Below, piece after piece: positions 1,186-35,901 of a stretch of DNA of 35,954 nt. This stretch comes from a bacterium (GTDB taxonomy: Bacteria > UBA9089 > JASEGY01), in NCBI GenBank assembly GCA_040753085.1, contig JBFMHI010000015.1, forward strand, positions 1 to 35,954. The letters are read 5' to 3'. A program made the translations under genes and the position numbers. The notes under the pieces are model-generated. The model did not search any database, was not told where the DNA came from, and was given only the letters and a program-made list of their open reading frames with translations. The number at the start of each line of letters is the position of its first letter. Positions within the stretch are counted from its first letter, which is position 1.

Positions 1186-1560
1186 ATGCGACCTGAATAT
1201 GATTTCACAAAAATGACTGATGGTATTCGACGTAAATATTACAAGACCTATCGTGATGGGCATGCGGTAAAGATCCACAAGACTGATGGAACAACTCTTG
1301 TGTAGTACTTCAACCTTGAAGATAGTGCAGTGATGATTGAACCAGAGATACGAGAGTATTTACCTGACTCGGAAGCTGTGAACAAGGCATTAAGTTGTTT
1401 AATTCCTCTATTATCCCAAAAGTGGGCAATAAAAGTAAAGCATGCTTTGATAATGAGGTTAAACGAGAAAAAGCTTAATCAATCGTTGCAGCGGACGGCG
1501 GAGGACTGTGCCGTGATTGAAAGTTTTGGGGACGGTTCAAAATCATCCATTTTCTTGTGA
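1186..1560 (+). pseudogene. Small conserved protein interrupted by an amber codon and running into a MITE-like element
   Basis: From ATG 1186 one frame reads 39 codons (beginning MRPEYDFTKM, with KYYKTYRDGHAVKIHK) to TAG at 1303-1305, then continues open in the same frame (YFNLEDSAVMIEPEIREYLPD...) to a stop at 1558-1560. The two halves look like one small protein of the 'EYDF..G.R.KYY' kind that often sits beside toxin-antitoxin genes, with a probable glutamine codon changed to TAG. The last dozen residues are encoded by the repeat element starting at 1529, so the 3' end is also altered. The ATG is 6 bases after the antitoxin stop. TAG is a normal stop elsewhere here (nuoD, nuoE, nuoM), so recoding is unlikely. 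A shorter protein starting at 1333 is possible but would lack the conserved N-terminus. Confidence 0.65.
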
Positions 1561-1697
1561 AACTTTAGGCGCGGTTAACCTTCCGCAGAAGTAGGGTGGA
1601 CATTACCCACCAATCTGTTCGCCATCTACGCCTTTTTGGTGGGCGGTGCCCACCCTACCTCTCAGCCGCAAGCTTTCACAGTAAAGTGAACCATCCC
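1529..1697 (-). repeat. MITE-like element, same ends as the nuoB/nuoC copies but different core
   Basis: Read on the minus strand it begins GGGATGGTTCACTTTACTG with GTGAAAGCTTGCGGCTGA and ends GAAAATGGATG..TTGAACCGTCCC, matching the ends of the elements at 9492-9661 and 10110-10277, in reverse orientation and with the same overall length (169 bp). The core differs: here it holds a long dyad, GTAGGGTGG..CCCACC (1591-1612) pairing with GGTGGG..CCACCCTAC (1637-1658). The 5' side overlaps the 3' end of the broken gene at 1186-1560. Confidence 0.8.
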
Positions 1698-8617: not shown

Positions 8618-8974
8618 ATGCCTGTAGGCTACGGATATGTGGTTCTTTTTATGGCCGCAGGAATCTTTATGGTGCTGGGGGCCTTCATTGCCAACTGGCT
8701 TCTGGCCCCATCTAAGCCGACCCAAAGAAAATCTTCTACCTATGAGTGCGGGGTTATTCCGGCCGGAGATGGCTGGATTCAATATAATGTTCGCTATTAC
8801 CTTTTCGCCCTCATCTTCCTCATCTTTGATGTGGAGACGGTCTTCCTTATTCCCTGGGCAGTAGTATTCAGAGACTTAGGGCTTTTCGCCTTTGTGGAGA
8901 TGTTTATTTTCGTCTTCATCCTGCTGGTAGGGCTGGCTTATGCCTGGCGGAAAGGAGTGCTGCGATGGGTTTAA
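8618..8974 (+). CDS. nuoA: NADH-quinone oxidoreductase subunit A
   Basis: About 118 residues, a three-helix membrane subunit of complex I. Diagnostic are the [12 protein letters not shown] loop segment, then [19 protein letters not shown], in which the D and E of the DVET motif are the conserved acidic residues of the second helix. AAGGAG at 8604-8609 sits 8 bases before ATG 8618, which decides the start. The earlier GTG 8609 and ATG 8612 overlap or crowd the ribosome binding site. First gene of the nuo operon. Its 3' end overlaps nuoB by 10 bases, which suggests coupled translation. Confidence 0.95.
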
Positions 8975-9465
8975 TAACAGATAATGTATTGCCAACTATA
9001 TATCGGCTGCCTGGTGGGCGGATTATTACCACTACAGCCGATTTTGTTATTAATTGGGGCAGGCGTTCCTCTGTTTGGCCGATGACTTTTGGTCTGGCTT
9101 GTTGCGCCATTGAAATGATGTGCACCGGCGCCTCAAGGTATGACCTGGATCGATTTGGGATGGGGGTCTTTCGTCCCTCTCCCCGACAGGCTGACTTGAT
9201 GATTGTGGCCGGAACTCTGACTTACAAGATGGCCTCTGTTTTGAAGATGCTTTACGACCAGATGCCGGAGCCTAAATGGGTTCTGGCCATGGGCAGTTGT
9301 GCCAATTCGGGAGGTATTTTTAACACCTATAGTGTTGTCCAGGGAGTGGATCAGATTGTCCCCGTAGATGTCTATGTTCCGGGCTGTCCACCCCGACCTG
9401 AGGCCCTGATGTATGGCTTGATGAAACTTCAGGATAGGATCAAGAAGGATTCGGTGATTAAATAA
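8965..9465 (+). CDS. nuoB: NADH-quinone oxidoreductase subunit B
   Basis: 166 residues. Peripheral-arm subunit carrying the terminal [4Fe-4S] cluster N2 that passes electrons to quinone. The four ligands are visible: adjacent C46 and C47 ([11 protein letters not shown]), C112 (MGSCANSGG) and C141 ([11 protein letters not shown]). The [21 protein letters not shown] segment is characteristic. The start ATG lies inside the end of nuoA behind AAAGGAG. The gene after it is not nuoC but an inserted cassette: nuoC begins 855 bases further on. Confidence 0.97.
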
Positions 9466-9491
9466 TGGCGGGTTGCGGATTGGAAAGGTAA

Positions 9492-9661
9492 GGGATGGTT
9501 CACCTTACTGTGAAAGCTTGCGGCTAAATTAGAAACCCGTTTTTTCCGAAAAAACGGGTTTCTGATCTCGTGTAACCCGAGTAGGTTGCCCCGAATTATT
9601 GAGGAAGATAGGAAAGGACCCGCAAGGTTTCACAAGAAAAATGGAGGATTTGAACCGTCCC
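9492..9661 (+). repeat. MITE-like element upstream of the DUF5618-like gene (copy 1)
   Basis: 170 bp with imperfect terminal inverted repeats: GGGATGGTTCA at the left and TGAACCGTCCC at the right, extending to GTGAAAGCTTGCGG and the complement of CCGCAAGGTTTCAC. The centre (9531-9563) is a perfect hairpin of 15 bp arms around CCG, rich in A/T at its apex, which could pause or terminate transcription inside the nuo operon. Nearly identical to 10110-10277. Between nuoB and this element (9466-9491) lies a short remnant of the ATTGCGG heptamer family. Confidence 0.88.
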
Positions 9662-9680
9662 AAAGGTAACTATATTTACA

Positions 9681-10058
9681 ATGCCGAAAGAAGCGATTAG
9701 ATATCTACAGAACGCCAAAGAAATACTGAAGGGTATCCCTATTGAGGAGAACACCTACACGGATATAAAGCCAGTAAGGGAAGCTTTTGGGACTGCCTAT
9801 CTTGCAGTGTTGGAAGTAATTAACGAGGCTCTAATAAAAAGAGGACTTACCAAAAAAGAGCTGCCAAAGTCAGTGGATGCATACAGAACGGCGATAAAAA
9901 AGCGCCTGGTAGTTCATGATGGAAAGCTTCTGAGGGAGTTTGAGAAACTTTACGATGCCTTACACATAGCCGGATATTATAGAGGCTTAATATATGATGT
10001 GAATATGGTAAAAGATGCTGTTAAAGCTACCAGGGCGTTTATTGATAAGGTGAAGTAG
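9681..10058 (+). CDS. DUF5618-like (HEPN-like helical) protein inserted in the nuo operon
   Basis: 125 residues, predicted all-helical and soluble. The pattern (ATG-PKEAIRYLQNAKEIL, then REAFGTAYLAVLEVINEALI, LPKSVDAYRTAIKK, YDALHIAGYYRGL) resembles DUF5618 proteins, which look like HEPN-type helical bundles and often occur in mobile contexts. I do not assign a reaction. No RX4-6H ribonuclease motif is visible, so it may be an antitoxin-like or accessory member. It has no obvious partner gene: it sits alone between two near-identical 170 bp repeats, separating nuoB from nuoC. Ribosome binding is weak (AAAGG about 15 bases upstream of the ATG). No role in complex I is expected. The arrangement looks like a repeat-bounded cassette. 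Confidence 0.7.
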   Translation: MPKEAIRYLQNAKEILKGIPIEENTYTDIKPVREAFGTAYLAVLEVINEALIKRGLTKKELPKSVDAYRTAIKKRLVVHDGKLLREFEKLYDALHIAGYYRGLIYDVNMVKDAVKATRAFIDKVK

Positions 10059-10109
10059 GGCGCAGGCAGAAACAGTTTCGGTTTCGGGTCTGGGAAAGGG
10101 CGAAATTCC

Positions 10110-10277
10110 GGGATGGTTCATCTTACTGTGAAAGCTTGCGGCTAAATTAGAAACCCGTTTTTCCGAAAAAACGGGTTTCTGATCTCGTGTAACCCGAGTA
10201 GGTTGCCCCGAATTATTGAGGAAGATACGAAGGACCCGCAAGGTTTCACAAGAAAAATGGAGGATTTGAACCGTCCC
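10110..10277 (+). repeat. MITE-like element downstream of the DUF5618-like gene (copy 2)
   Basis: 168 bp, same orientation as 9492-9661. Differences are a C/T in the left end (GGTTCA[C/T]CTTACTG), one fewer T in the hairpin arm (10149-10180) and small changes near GAAGATA[G/C]. The two copies make a direct repeat around the gene at 9681-10058. Confidence 0.88.
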
Positions 10278-10320
10278 GAAATTTCTAACTCGAAACTTGG
10301 TAGATAACAAGGTGGCAAAA

Positions 10321-10800
10321 ATGACCAGAGAAGAATTGACCGAAACCCTTAAAAAGGAGTGGGGAGATAAGATCTCAATCGAGGAGAGAATTGACCTGAC
10401 CATCAGGACAGGCAAGGAATATCTTCTCGAAATATGCCAGGCCCTTTATAATGATCCCCGGTGGGATTTTTCCTATCTGGCCGATCTGGCTGGCGTGGAT
10501 TATCCGGAAAGGGACCAGCGCCTTGAGGTGGTCTATCATCTTTACTCTATGGCTAAAAACCATCGGCTTTGCCTTAAGGTTTCTGTGGCGGAAGATGAGG
10601 CGGTCTCCTCAGTGGCTTCCATTTGGAAAGGGGCGTCGGCTATGGAAAGAGAGGCCTACGATCTTTTGGGTATTCAATTTGAAAATCACCTCGACCTGCG
10701 ACGGATTTATCTGCCGCCGGACTGGCAAGGGCACCCCTTGAGAAAGGATTACCCCTTAAAAGGGAAAGGTGATTACTCGATAGAGGGGAAAAATATATAA
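10321..10800 (+). CDS. nuoC: NADH-quinone oxidoreductase subunit C
   Basis: 159 residues. Hydrophilic 30 kDa-type subunit of the complex I Q-module. Signatures: YLADLAGVDYPERDQRLEVVYHLYS and, near the end, REAYDLLGIQFENHLDLRRI with PPDWQGHPLRKDYPL. The usual HPDLRR reads HLDLRR here. Start taken at ATG 10321 with AAGGTGG just upstream. An in-frame TTG at 10297 is possible but less well placed. It is separated from nuoD by a heptamer repeat array rather than by the few bases normal for nuo genes. Confidence 0.94.
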   Translation: MTREELTETLKKEWGDKISIEERIDLTIRTGKEYLLEICQALYNDPRWDFSYLADLAGVDYPERDQRLEVVYHLYSMAKNHRLCLKVSVAEDEAVSSVASIWKGASAMEREAYDLLGIQFENHLDLRRIYLPPDWQGHPLRKDYPLKGKGDYSIEGKNI

Positions 10801-10801
10801 C

Positions 10802-10936
10802 GTAACCGTTCGTCATATGATGCTCGATGCTCGATGCTCGATACTCGATGCTCGATCCTCGATGCTCGATCCTCGATGCTCGATGCTCGATGCTGGTAAA
10901 GGATCCAGTATCCAGGATCGAGCATCCAGGATCGAG
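10802..10936 (+). repeat. Heptamer array (ATGCTCG family) abutting the nuoD start codon
   Basis: Starts with GTAACCGTTCG (10802-10812), then 11 exact 7 bp units at 10820-10896 (ATGCTCG, with variants ATACTCG and ATCCTCG, last unit ATGCTGG). An apex TAAAGGATCCAGTATCCAG follows, then inverted units (GATCGAG, CATCCAG) to 10936. The tail can fold back on the array. The tail supplies AGGA (10928-10931), which serves as the ribosome binding site of nuoD. The same layout, with a longer array, occurs at 35396-35860. Confidence 0.92.
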
Positions 10937-12121
10937 ATGGTCAAAGCGATGACTGAGAAACGAGAGATGATTCTTAATTTTGGCCCCCAGCATCCCAGCA
11001 CCCACGGGGTCCTGAGGTTGCTCCTGGAATTGGATGGTGAGGTAATTAAGGATTGCGATATTCAAATCGGATATCTTCACCGGGGCATTGAAAAGCTGGC
11101 CGAGCACAGGCGATATAATCAGATTATCCCTTTAACCGACCGTCTGGACTATATCTCGGCCGGAAGCAATAACCTGGCTTACTGTTTGGCCGTTGAGAAG
11201 CTTTTAGGGATTGAGGTCCCCCGAAGGGCCAACTTCATCCGGGTTATCATTGCTGAACTGACCAGGATGTCAAGCCATCTGCTGGGAGTGGGCACTCATG
11301 TCCTTGATATGGGAGCCTTTACCCCTATGTTGTATGCCTTCAGGGAAAGAGAAATGATCATGGATCTCTTTGATGCATACTGTGGGGCGAGATTAACCCT
11401 GAATTGCTTCCGGATTGGGGGAGTAATGGCGGATCTGCCTGAGGGGTTTATTGAAAAGGCCAAAAAATTTACCGATATCTTTCCGGCTAAGGTAGACGAG
11501 TATGAAACCTTGTTGACCAAGAATCGTATCTGGATGGAGCGAACTCAAGGGGTAGGGGTTATCCCGGCCAATGAGGCGATAAACTGGGGGCTATCCGGCC
11601 CTGTGCTCAGGGGTTCAGGCGTAAAATGGGATATTCGAAAGGCAGAGCCTTATTGTGTTTATGATGAGATGGATTTCGATATAGTCACCCAAGAAGCCGG
11701 TGATGTCTATGCCCGCTATTTGGTGCGGTTGGGAGAGATGAGGCAAAGTTGCCGCATTGTCAGGCAGGCCATTGAGCAGATACCCCAAGGCAGGATTATG
11801 GTCGATGACCCCAGATATGTCCTGCCCCCAAGGGAGCGTTTGGATACCAGTATCGAGTCCTTAATCCATCAATTTCATCTTGTTATCGATGGATTCGCTC
11901 CTCCCCCAGGTGATGTTTACGCCAGTATCGAGGCCCCTAAAGGTGAGCTAGGCCTCTACATTATTTCGGATGGTTCTGGTCAACCCTACCGGCTTCGAAT
12001 AAGACCCCCCTCTTTTCTCAACCTGCAATTTCTGAAAGAGATGATCAAAGGGCAGATGGTGGCTGATATAGTGGCGGCTATTGGCAGTCTTGATATTGTC
12101 CTGGGTGAGGTAGATAAATAG
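10937..12121 (+). CDS. nuoD: NADH-quinone oxidoreductase subunit D
   Basis: 394 residues. 49 kDa-type subunit that, with NuoB, forms the quinone site near cluster N2, and is homologous to the large subunit of [NiFe]-hydrogenases but lacks its nickel ligands. Recognisable: NFGPQHPSTHGVLRLLLELDGE, IGYLHRGIEKLAE, TDRLDYISAG, MSSHLLGVGTHVLDMGA, and a C-terminus ending DIVLGEVDK (the usual ending is a D.VLG..DR motif). ATG 10937 is chosen because AGGA lies 5 bases upstream and the family N-terminus starts here. ATG 10949 is a close alternative. The frame stays open through the repeat array to 10817, so a 40-residue heptapeptide extension is possible but not expected. Confidence 0.95.
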   Translation: MVKAMTEKREMILNFGPQHPSTHGVLRLLLELDGEVIKDCDIQIGYLHRGIEKLAEHRRYNQIIPLTDRLDYISAGSNNLAYCLAVEKLLGIEVPRRANFIRVIIAELTRMSSHLLGVGTHVLDMGAFTPMLYAFREREMIMDLFDAYCGARLTLNCFRIGGVMADLPEGFIEKAKKFTDIFPAKVDEYETLLTKNRIWMERTQGVGVIPANEAINWGLSGPVLRGSGVKWDIRKAEPYCVYDEMDFDIVTQEAGDVYARYLVRLGEMRQSCRIVRQAIEQIPQGRIMVDDPRYVLPPRERLDTSIESLIHQFHLVIDGFAPPPGDVYASIEAPKGELGLYIISDGSGQPYRLRIRPPSFLNLQFLKEMIKGQMVADIVAAIGSLDIVLGEVDK

Positions 12122-12135
12122 GAAGGAAGTTTAAT

Positions 12136-12510
12136 GTGAACCGACCAAGGCTAAATAAGACCGAAGAAAAAGCCCTATCTGAATTTAGGGAGCGGCTGCT
12201 AAGGGAATTTGCTTCACGAATAGTGTTAATTAAACTTTATGGCTCTCGGGCAAGAGGAGAGCGACATTGGTATTCAGATGTAGATGTCCTGGTTGTAGTA
12301 AAGAGGTTGACTAAAAAATTCAAAGGAAAGGTGCTTGATATTGAGTGTGAGATAGATGAAAAATATGGTTATAAATCACATATCTCATCTACAGAAATGT
12401 CGTTAGCTGAATATAAATGGATGCTTAGAAGAGACTGGCCTTTTATTGTTAATGTTGAAGAGGATGGAATAGAGTTGTGGAGGCATCCCGAGATAGAAAT
12501 AAATCCTTAA
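12136..12510 (+). CDS. MNT-family nucleotidyltransferase (antitoxin of an MNT/HEPN pair)
   Basis: 124 residues. Minimal nucleotidyltransferase with the catalytic pattern YGSRARGERHWYSDVDVLVVV (G-S then D-x-D). Start is GTG 12136 behind AGGAAGG. In characterised MNT/HEPN systems such as MntA/HepT, the nucleotidyltransferase is the antitoxin and inactivates its HEPN partner by AMPylation. The HEPN gene overlaps the end of this gene by 34 bases, which fits a two-gene toxin-antitoxin unit. The pair lies between nuoD and nuoE in the same direction, so it is likely transcribed with complex I unless it has its own promoter. The AMPylation role here is inferred from family. Confidence 0.85.
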   Translation: MNRPRLNKTEEKALSEFRERLLREFASRIVLIKLYGSRARGERHWYSDVDVLVVVKRLTKKFKGKVLDIECEIDEKYGYKSHISSTEMSLAEYKWMLRRDWPFIVNVEEDGIELWRHPEIEINP

Positions 12511-12896
12511 ACGGAAGAGATTACCTTAAATCAGCGAGACAGAAATTAAAGAGTGCTAAAGTCTTGCTTGATACAGGTAATTATGGTGACTCTATCTCTA
12601 GGTCTTACTATGCATTTTTAGATGCGGCTACAGCTGTTTTGATCATAAAGGATTTATTGCCTAAATCCCATACCGGCGCAATCGATCTATTCAGTCTTCA
12701 TTTTATAAAGACTGATTTAGTCGAGACAAAATATATTAAGTGGTTTAGGCGAATAAAAAAAGATAGAGAAGATGCAGACTATAAACACAGAAAAGAATTT
12801 ACTAAAGAGGATACCGAAGAAACTTATTGCGAAGTAGAGGCGTTTGTAAAGATGATTGAGGAGCTATTCCCTAAGCTCCTTAAAGGAAGGGATTGA
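12477..12896 (+). CDS. HEPN-domain protein (toxin of an MNT/HEPN pair)
   Basis: 139 residues, helical. HEPN features: YLKSARQKLKSAKVLLDTGNY, SRSYYAFLDAATAVL, and the C-terminal DREDADYKHRKEFTKEDTEE stretch, where R and H six residues apart (REDADYKH) resemble the RX4-6H ribonuclease motif. The start is GTG 12477 inside the upstream nucleotidyltransferase gene (34 base overlap). No better start follows before the conserved first helix. Function as an RNase toxin is inferred from the family and pairing. The stop codon overlaps the leader of nuoE: its final bases provide AAGGAAGGGA, the nuoE ribosome binding site. Confidence 0.82.
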   Translation: MEASRDRNKSLNGRDYLKSARQKLKSAKVLLDTGNYGDSISRSYYAFLDAATAVLIIKDLLPKSHTGAIDLFSLHFIKTDLVETKYIKWFRRIKKDREDADYKHRKEFTKEDTEETYCEVEAFVKMIEELFPKLLKGRD

Positions 12897-20293: not shown

Positions 20294-20566
20294 GCTGAAG
20301 ACTGAAGGCTAAAGGCTGAAGACTAAAGGCTGAAGGCTGAAGACTGAAGGCTGAAGGCGGAAGGCGGAAGGCTGAAGGCGAAAGGCTGAGGGCGGAAGGC
20401 TGAAGGCGGAAGGCTGAAGGCGGAAGGCTGAAGGCGAAAGGCGGAGGGCGGAAGGCTGAAGGTGGAAGGCTGAGGGCGGAAGGCTGAAGGTGGAAGGCTG
20501 AAGGCGAAAGGCGGAAAGCTGAAAGCGGAAGGCTGAAGGCGGAAGCCTATCCACCTGAGCAGTTAC
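20293..20566 (+). repeat. 36-unit heptamer array (GGCTGAA family) with GTAAC-type right boundary
   Basis: Exactly 36 units of 7 bp run from 20293 to 20544, mostly GGCTGAA and GGCGGAA with GACTGAA, GGCGAAA, GGTGGAA and AGCTGAA variants. No phase slip occurs over 252 bp. It ends GCCTATCCAC, then CTGAGCAGTTAC (20555-20566), the complement of the GTAAC boundary word. Fourteen bases later nuoK begins. Short relatives lie at 25937-25954 and 28205-28275, the latter with the same CCTATCCACCTGAG end. Confidence 0.92.
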
Positions 20567-20580
20567 GAGGGAGAAACAAG

Positions 20581-20886
20581 ATGGAACTGTCACATTATCT
20601 TACTTTATCCGCTATAATATTTTCTATTGGTCTCTATGGCGTTCTCACCAGACGAAACGCCCTGGGGATATTGCTCTCTATCGAGCTGATGTTGAACTCA
20701 GTTAATATCAATCTGGTGGGCTTTTCTCATTTTATTACGCCGGCCTTACTGGCCGGTCAGATATTTACCATCTTTACGATCACTATTGCGGCGGCTGAGG
20801 CCGCCGTGGGACTGGCGATCATTAATAATATCTATCGCTCGGCCAAGACTGTCAACTGTGATGAGATAAACCTGATGAAAGGGTAG
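20581..20886 (+). CDS. nuoK: NADH-quinone oxidoreductase subunit K
   Basis: 101 residues, three membrane helices, the usual length. The two proton-path glutamates are visible in LLSIELMLNSVNIN (helix 2) and IAAAEAAVGLAI (helix 3). ATG 20581 follows GAGGGAG. Heptamer arrays flank the gene on both sides, so transcripts of this segment are bounded by repeats. Confidence 0.95.
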   Translation: MELSHYLTLSAIIFSIGLYGVLTRRNALGILLSIELMLNSVNINLVGFSHFITPALLAGQIFTIFTITIAAAEAAVGLAIINNIYRSAKTVNCDEINLMKG

Positions 20887-34062: not shown

Positions 34063-35394
34063 TGTCAAGAGGAGAAGAATAACCAGACCAAGACCTCCCA
34101 GAACGGCTGTCTTGTTTCCCCCTTTGGTCTCTGAGATTTCTTCTTTCGGTGAAATAGAAGGCGGTTCCTTTGGTGGCTTTTCTTCGACCTGGGGAGGAGG
34201 GATAACTTCAGCTTCGGCTATCTTGGGAGGAAGTGAGGTTTCTTCTTCTTGCTTTTCTTTGACCTGAGAAAGAGAGGTAACTTCAGTTATCTCAGGAGGA
34301 GAAGCCATCTTCGGCAGGTACCAATCTCCGGCAGGCTCAAGTCTCAGCCTATAAGTCTTGCCTTGTTTCAGAACGAGGCTGGGTAGAATACCCTTCATTC
34401 TTTCGGTGCAAGGGGGGAAATAGTAGTCCGGCCAAAGAGGCTGGGGGGGCTCTCGATTATCGGCGAATTTGAGGTCGAACTCCGGATGGAGAGGAATGGA
34501 ATCACCATTTTCATAAAGAACTAACTGGAAAGAAGATTGATCCGCTTTGGCGATCTCAATCGGACAGATATCAAAAAAACAGATATGTTTTCCCACCGGG
34601 AGGTGGAAGGATTTTTCGGTGAGAGCAGGACTGGCTGCTTCCCGGACGAATTCGATTTCAGGACCAGAAGGAAAAAAATAGAAAAGAAAATCCTCGGAGG
34701 AGGCGGGAGAATTTGATTCCTTGAAAAATTCTAATTTAGGGTAAAACCGGAAATAGTCCTTTAAAACTTCATCTATTTCAAAAGAAAAAGGCAGACTGCC
34801 TGTCCCTAAGCTCTCTTTTTCCCTTTCCAGACCATTTTGAGCCTGGGCGGCAATTTCTTTTATCTGTTCCGGCGGCTCCTCAATTAAACTAAGACGATCA
34901 AGCCCCAGGCGTTCTCCCTCAGCAAAAACCTGAAGGGCCTTTTCAAAAGAACCCATCTCGAGTAAGGTTTCTGCCTTGCGAAAGTAAGCATCAACCAGAT
35001 CAGGATTAAAATTTATCGCTTCCGAGAAGGCCATTTCAGCAAACTCCAGATTTTTAGCGGCTCTAATTCCCAGAATTTCATCCAGATATTGGAAATCTAA
35101 ATAAGATGAAGCGTTAAATTCATCCTTAAGAATGTAAAGAAAATAAGTTAAAGGAACCCTGTTCTGGTAAAATCTTTTCCTTAACTCATGAGCGGTAATC
35201 TTATTTAAAAGGAAGGTCTGAGTAAGGATGGCCTTTCCTTCTTTAATGTAGAACTCCCCTCTTCTTAAGGCTCTTTCTCCCAGGTTGTACCACTTGAGGG
35301 CATTTTTTTCATCTACTTGTTGCGCTGAGGAGAAGAAAGGGGTAGAGATCAGAAAGATTGAAGATAGTAAAAAGATGGAAGATAAACGTTTCAT
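34054..35394 (-). CDS. Exported TPR-containing protein with C-terminal membrane helix
   Basis: 446 residues from ATG 35394. Signal peptide (1-24, RLSSIFLLSSIFLISTPFF then SSAQQ). A TPR-like region at about 110-180 (AEMAFSEAINFNPDLVDAYFRKAETLLEMG and FEKALQVFAEGERLGLD). The middle is beta-rich and unrecognised (EFDLKFADNREPPQPLWPDY). A proline/glutamate-rich linker (about 375-425) precedes a final membrane helix AVLGGLGLVILLLLTLR. So a periplasmic domain is probably tethered at its C-terminus. The frame is open upstream through the whole heptamer array to 35844, but the signal peptide marks 35394 as the true start. No ribosome binding site other than what the array provides. Function unknown. 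Confidence 0.8.
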   Translation of the reverse strand: MKRLSSIFLLSSIFLISTPFFSSAQQVDEKNALKWYNLGERALRRGEFYIKEGKAILTQTFLLNKITAHELRKRFYQNRVPLTYFLYILKDEFNASSYLDFQYLDEILGIRAAKNLEFAEMAFSEAINFNPDLVDAYFRKAETLLEMGSFEKALQVFAEGERLGLDRLSLIEEPPEQIKEIAAQAQNGLEREKESLGTGSLPFSFEIDEVLKDYFRFYPKLEFFKESNSPASSEDFLFYFFPSGPEIEFVREAASPALTEKSFHLPVGKHICFFDICPIEIAKADQSSFQLVLYENGDSIPLHPEFDLKFADNREPPQPLWPDYYFPPCTERMKGILPSLVLKQGKTYRLRLEPAGDWYLPKMASPPEITEVTSLSQVKEKQEEETSLPPKIAEAEVIPPPQVEEKPPKEPPSISPKEEISETKGGNKTAVLGGLGLVILLLLTLR

Positions 35395-35395
35395 A

Positions 35396-35860
35396 ATGCT
35401 CGATGCTCGATTCTCGACACTGGATGCTCGATTCTCGACACTGGATGCTCGATACTCGATGCTGGATACTCGATGCTGGATACTCGATGCTCGATGTTGG
35501 ATGCTCGATGCTCGATGCTCGATGCTGGATGCTCGATGCTGGATGCTCGATGCTGGATGCTCGATGTTGGATGCTCGATGCTGGATGCTCGATGCTTGAT
35601 GCTCGATGCTGGATGCTCGATGTTGGATGCTCGATGCTCGATACTCGATGCTCGATGCTGGATGCTCGATGTTTGATACTCGATGCTGGATGCTCGATGT
35701 TGGATGCTCGATGCTCGATGTTGGATGCTCGATGCTCGATGTTGGATGCTCGATGCTCGATGTTGGATGCTCGCTGCTTGATACTCGATGCTGGATGCTC
35801 GATGCTGGTAAAGGATTTAGTGTCCAGTATCGAGCATCGAGCATCGAGCATCGAGCATCG
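35396..35860. repeat. 59-unit heptamer array (ATGCTCG family) with inverted tail
   Basis: Exactly 59 units of 7 bp (35396-35808), mixing ATGCTCG, ATGCTGG, ATGTTGG, ATACTCG, ATTCTCG and ACACTGG. Then comes the apex TAAAGGATTTAGTGTCCAG and five inverted units (TATCGAG, CATCGAG...) to 35860. The apex matches that of the nuoD array at 10897-10915. All six frames are open because every frame reads the same heptapeptide cycle. The array starts one base from the TPR start codon. Confidence 0.95.
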
Positions 35861-35901
35861 AAATTATATCACAACGTAAAGCCTCTTTCAAGAAAAATAT
35901 T

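Follow-up and report, generated by a model that had tools for sequence, protein, structure and literature searches.

Two near-identical repeats on either side of a single small gene raise the question of whether repeats and gene arrived together, as one mobile unit, or in separate events. Such an arrangement lies between nuoB and nuoC in the window analysed here, a stretch of bacterial DNA of 35,954 nucleotides, and a sequence-only reading had taken it for one composite mobile cassette carrying a DUF5618-like gene; the coordinates given there, 9492-10277, exclude the target duplications 9484-9491/9662-9669 and 10102-10109/10278-10285. We consider it highly probable that the nuo operon already held the DUF5618 gene when two MITEs inserted, independently of each other, into the short spacers flanking it. 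The features are:

1529-1697, minus strand: class B member of the MITE family, the third in the window; it shares the family ends but has another interior
8965-9465, plus strand: nuoB, the upstream neighbour (Pfam PF01058)
9484-9491: left target-site duplication of element 1, AAAGGTAA, matching 9662-9669 at 8 of 8 bases
9492-9661, plus strand: element 1, MITE copy 1, class A, 170 bp, central hairpin at 9528-9566
9662-9669: right target-site duplication of element 1, AAAGGTAA, containing AAAGG
9681-10058, plus strand: DUF5618 gene, 125 aa (Pfam PF18498, E 4.9e-38, score 130.5 bits, cut-off 33)
10102-10109: left target-site duplication of element 2, GAAATTCC, matching 10278-10285 at 7 of 8 bases
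10110-10277, plus strand: element 2, MITE copy 2, class A, 168 bp, central hairpin at 10146-10183
10278-10285: right target-site duplication of element 2, GAAATTTC, with one mismatch to the left one
10297-10800, plus strand: nuoC, the downstream neighbour (Pfam PF00329; with a possible alternative start at the ATG at 10321)

What the sequence-only reading had said of the repeats themselves was borne out. BLAST, alignment and folding confirmed near-identical direct repeats of 168-170 bp with terminal inverted repeats and a strong central hairpin, and Pfam matches to NuoB, DUF5618 and NuoC place them within the nuo operon around a gene that is, with its score above the cut-off, a true DUF5618 gene. 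Both copies lie on the plus strand with 98% identity by BLAST and 4 differences when aligned. They have terminal inverted repeats of 11 bp (GGGATGGTTCA at the left end, TGAACCGTCCC at the right), a second, subterminal inverted repeat further inside (CTGTGAAAGCTTGCGG / CCGCAAGGTTTCACA) and a central hairpin of 17-18 bp. Their classification as MITEs also stands, given the terminal inverted repeats, the constant 8-bp duplications, the small size, the many copies and the absence of a transposase gene.

The proposed unit of repeats and gene did not hold. Each of the two copies is enclosed by an 8-bp duplication of its own, and the sequences bounding the pair on its outer sides, AAAGGTAA and GAAATTTC, have 3 of 8 bases in common and differ at 5 of 8, with no single duplication bounding the whole unit. 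The separate duplications and the unlike outer flanks indicate that the pair came as two events and not as one unit. The joint entry of both MITEs and DUF5618 into the operon, as proposed for MITE-flanked integrons, would account for the direct-repeat arrangement around a single gene, and MITE pairs flanking integrons have been reported in Acinetobacter (PMC10969869, its refs 70-73). Both systems show a near-identical MITE pair around a gene-bearing stretch, but the window MITEs, unlike those around the integrons, each have their own duplication, and the gene is present without the left MITE in a sister genome. This sister (G001), the only genome of the same genus found, has nuoB, 27 bases and then DUF5618 (identity 93% across 108 residues); the left site is empty of any element, and the place corresponding to 9662-9669 reads GGGGAAGG. 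The sequence-only reading had itself named DUF5618 at this place in relatives lacking the repeats as the finding that would speak against it; for the left junction that finding now exists and largely refutes the cassette, while the sister contig ends within DUF5618, so that the right junction is unassembled there and therefore not comparable.

A genome-wide check of what lies between pairs of elements pointed the same way, as no other close pair brackets an intact gene. The two copies at contig C26 stand 211 bp apart, each with its own exact duplication; elsewhere, close pairs are separated by 7 bp (C217) or about 100 bp (C85), or are nested (C58), and several close pairs were expected by simulation when insertions are confined to spacers. 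At the nested site (L038 1001-1346), a class B element sits inside a class A element and shows an exact duplication of 8 bp, GTTTTTTC; this nesting gives the order of the class A and class B insertions. We therefore regard joint entry as very improbable. Two unrelated MITE insertions can thus leave behind what looks like a gene cassette, and per-copy target duplications together with one sister genome suffice to tell the two apart.

The similarity of the two copies could also be thought to stem from a single insertion that was later copied by segmental duplication. The class A copies are related in a star-like pattern centred on a master sequence, from which the window copies show 3 differences each, compared with 4 from each other, and one derived base is common to both window copies and absent from the other class A copies. 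This base, like the near-identity of the copies, would suit a segmental duplication and would also suit the cassette; however, each copy is no further from the genome-wide master than from the other copy, and a segmental duplication would have carried the flanks along, whereas the immediate flanks differ and the duplications are separate. Unless the two different duplications arose by chance they refute this explanation, which we hold to be barely conceivable. The common derived base weakly suggests, as something allowed and not required, that one window copy came from a local hop of the other.

Under the preferred reading of two independent insertions, the gene was there first. The nuoC gene stands close behind nuoB in relatives outside the genus (G006, G009, G011, G015, G002, G003, G007 and G014), and for this reason DUF5618 probably entered the nuoB-nuoC gap in the lineage of the window's genus, earlier than the left MITE; in the sister genome, the nuoC of this operon was not detected. 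The left insertion lies just 5' of the DUF5618 start and, on direct reading, the duplicated AAAGGTAA preserved a purine-rich stretch upstream of the ATG, in which AAAGG (within 9662-9669) may serve as the ribosome-binding site of DUF5618.

That the repeats are mobile elements is supported by their distribution. In the 3.05-Mb genome to which the window belongs (G000), the element gave 79 BLAST matches, far beyond chance, corresponding to about 45 traces in several interior classes, and 36 copies carry a GGGAYGGTTCA-type sequence at both ends. Family members measure 136-356 bp and contain no transposase gene; besides class A (168-170 bp) there are forms of 136, 146, 149, 169, 203, 264 and about 350 bp with common ends and other interiors. 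An 8-bp target duplication is exact in 20 of the 36 two-ended copies and has at most one mismatch in 24, compared with a mean of 0.88 and a maximum of 7 when the flanks were re-paired in 2000 shuffles. Duplications of 5, 6, 7, 10 or 11 bp were found in none of the 36, and one of 9 bp fits a single copy. Since 11 of the 36 show no clear 8- or 9-bp duplication, some copies have rearranged flanks. The class B copy in the window is bounded by an exact duplication as well (AAGTTTTG at 1521-1528 and 1698-1705). These constant 8-bp duplications are the mark of transposition.

A search of 41 genomes found related ends in 10, all within the same phylum and eight of which lie outside the genus, and many of the copies in other phylum genomes carry 8-bp duplications of their own. 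We thereby put on record a MITE family with 8-bp duplications, unmatched to a named one, that is spread through a poorly sampled phylum. Identity between a class A copy in a genome of another family (G018 C300; L069 1501-1669) and two copies of the window's genome was considered as a case of horizontal spread and set aside: its flanks share other repeats with the window's genome and its sister and nothing with G013, which is of the same genus as G018, and mis-binning is at least as likely.

Like other bacterial MITEs (for instance Correia/NEMIS, RUP and ERIC; PMC10969869, PMC2229807), which are mostly shorter than 200 bp, the elements are non-coding, have terminal inverted repeats and target duplications, exist in many intergenic copies and show a strong predicted RNA fold. 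The window family differs from them by ends of the form GGGAYGGTTCA and not of the TA type, by duplications of 8 bp, by several interiors for one pair of ends and by its occurrence in a sparsely sampled phylum.

The predicted RNA folds are indeed very strong, with -73.8 kcal/mol (z -8.0) for element 1 and -70.9 kcal/mol (z -6.8) for element 2, and no shuffled sequence equalled either of them. It could be argued from such folds, and from a paired-end architecture kept across interior classes and genomes, that the elements serve the nuo operon as a conserved structured RNA or a regulatory hairpin and owe their retention to this function, beyond being mobile DNA. No promoter or terminator above chance was detected inside the elements, and the lack of a terminator-like site makes read-through of the hairpin plausible. 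However, paired ends are equally expected of inverted repeats bound by a transposase, copies sit with target duplications at dozens of unrelated sites, the nuoB-DUF5618 junction of the sister genome lacks the element, and an Rfam search returned sub-threshold chance matches only, with no family at gathering score. A role as conserved RNA is accordingly given very little credence here, and the repeats are treated as inserted MITEs.

Inserted MITEs might nevertheless affect the operon. If co-transcribed with nuo, the elements would form very stable hairpins that may act in mRNA processing or insulation. Transcripts carrying Correia MITEs are processed by RNase III (PMC10969869, PMC2229807), and by analogy nuo transcripts could be processed by this enzyme at the window MITEs. 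Going further, the 98%-identical direct repeats might make DUF5618 excisable by homologous recombination while the hairpins split the nuo transcript, which would turn an HEPN-like gene into a separately expressed, losable module; we consider this combination unlikely.

The source of the movement is suggested by longer relatives of the family. We infer a non-autonomous element that depends for its movement on a trans-acting transposase, probably a DDE enzyme, which would recognise the terminal and subterminal inverted repeats and join the element to a staggered cut, after which gap repair would leave the 8-bp direct repeat that is seen. The enzyme probably comes from a longer relative that shares the end and carries a zinc-ribbon DDE-like transposase. 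A variant of the right-hand end, GGGACGGTTCATAACCGTCC, stands at contig ends in the window's own genome (C173, C124, C109, C92, C155 and C85), a pattern that a longer repeated element would produce by interrupting the assembly. At one of these places (C173; L170 1518-1784), the end of the longer element class breaks a paralogue of DUF5618.

On contig C191 of the sister genome, the GGGACGGTTCATAACCGTCC end of the family is followed after about 345 bp by a transposase-like gene that is damaged and includes a zinc-ribbon stretch (CPSCG...YPDCG); this degenerate copy, which also contains a nested repeat, is the sole basis for the link to a transposase. A transposase fragment 87% identical to it lies at C30 in the window's genome. 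Of the NCBIfam models, IS1_IS1595_Zn (19.8 bits, cut-off 28) and IS256_N_4Cys matched the candidate below threshold, and it gave no Pfam, plasmid or solved-structure match by sequence. A degenerate copy in the sister genome and fragments in the own genome were the only forms present in these two genomes, and an intact autonomous element with both ends was found in neither. The zinc-ribbon gene is the putative mobiliser of the family. An 8-bp duplication is typical of IS1595, and the family resembles transposons of the IS1/IS1595 type in this duplication and in a zinc-ribbon candidate transposase with sub-threshold NCBIfam matches; it differs, in this comparison of duplications and transposase profiles, in that no match reaches the curated cut-off and the element copy is degenerate. 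The family is of a known kind, and we could assign it to no named family.

As judged from its sequence context, the DUF5618 gene of the window is a resident accessory gene of the nuo operon. Several genomes of the phylum hold DUF5618 in multiple copies beside unrelated genes. Two of them, G013 and G018, have it within the nuo operon between nuoC and nuoD (L121 1501-1869; L122 165-533), and these copies do not group with the window gene in the tree, which points to separate arrivals. None of the papers searched deals with DUF5618. The protein may have an HEPN-like fold: in a single-sequence structure model of moderate confidence (pLDDT 72), the best solved neighbours found by Foldseek are HepT-type HEPN toxins (TM about 0.6, E 0.01-0.1). 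A check for the Rx4-6H motif showed that a (K/R)-rich stretch ends in histidine in most DUF5618 homologues and in Y in one (L136). Compared by profile with the HEPN protein that the window itself encodes, DUF5618 scored a probability of 4%. While the predicted neighbourhood of HepT toxins likens DUF5618 to the HEPN/MNT toxin-antitoxin proteins of the MntA-HepT type (PMC7641770), it differs from these by having no Pfam HEPN match and no adjoining MNT nucleotidyltransferase, its neighbours being the MITEs, nuoB and nuoC.

More generally, the nuo operon repeatedly acquires small accessory genes and repeats. A toxin-antitoxin-type pair of genes for an MNT nucleotidyltransferase and an HEPN protein lies between nuoD and nuoE of the window (12136-12896). 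Elsewhere in the phylum, two further cases were named by eye: in G016 a HicB/HicA-like pair separates nuoB from nuoC (L088 887-1385), and in G018 the gene for a four-helix-bundle-like protein separates nuoA from nuoB (L089 1045-1428). Low-complexity repeats with units of the ATGCTCG and TCAGC types, likewise recognised by eye, lie in the nuoC-nuoD gap (10817-10937), before nuoK (20309-20593) and at the end of the window (35285-35879), the first of these blocks lengthening the open frame of nuoD upstream. At 664-1180 of the window, a HigB-like gene for a RelE-type toxin (PF09907), which also gave a PADLOC match to PD-Lambda-2_A, is followed by a small open frame.
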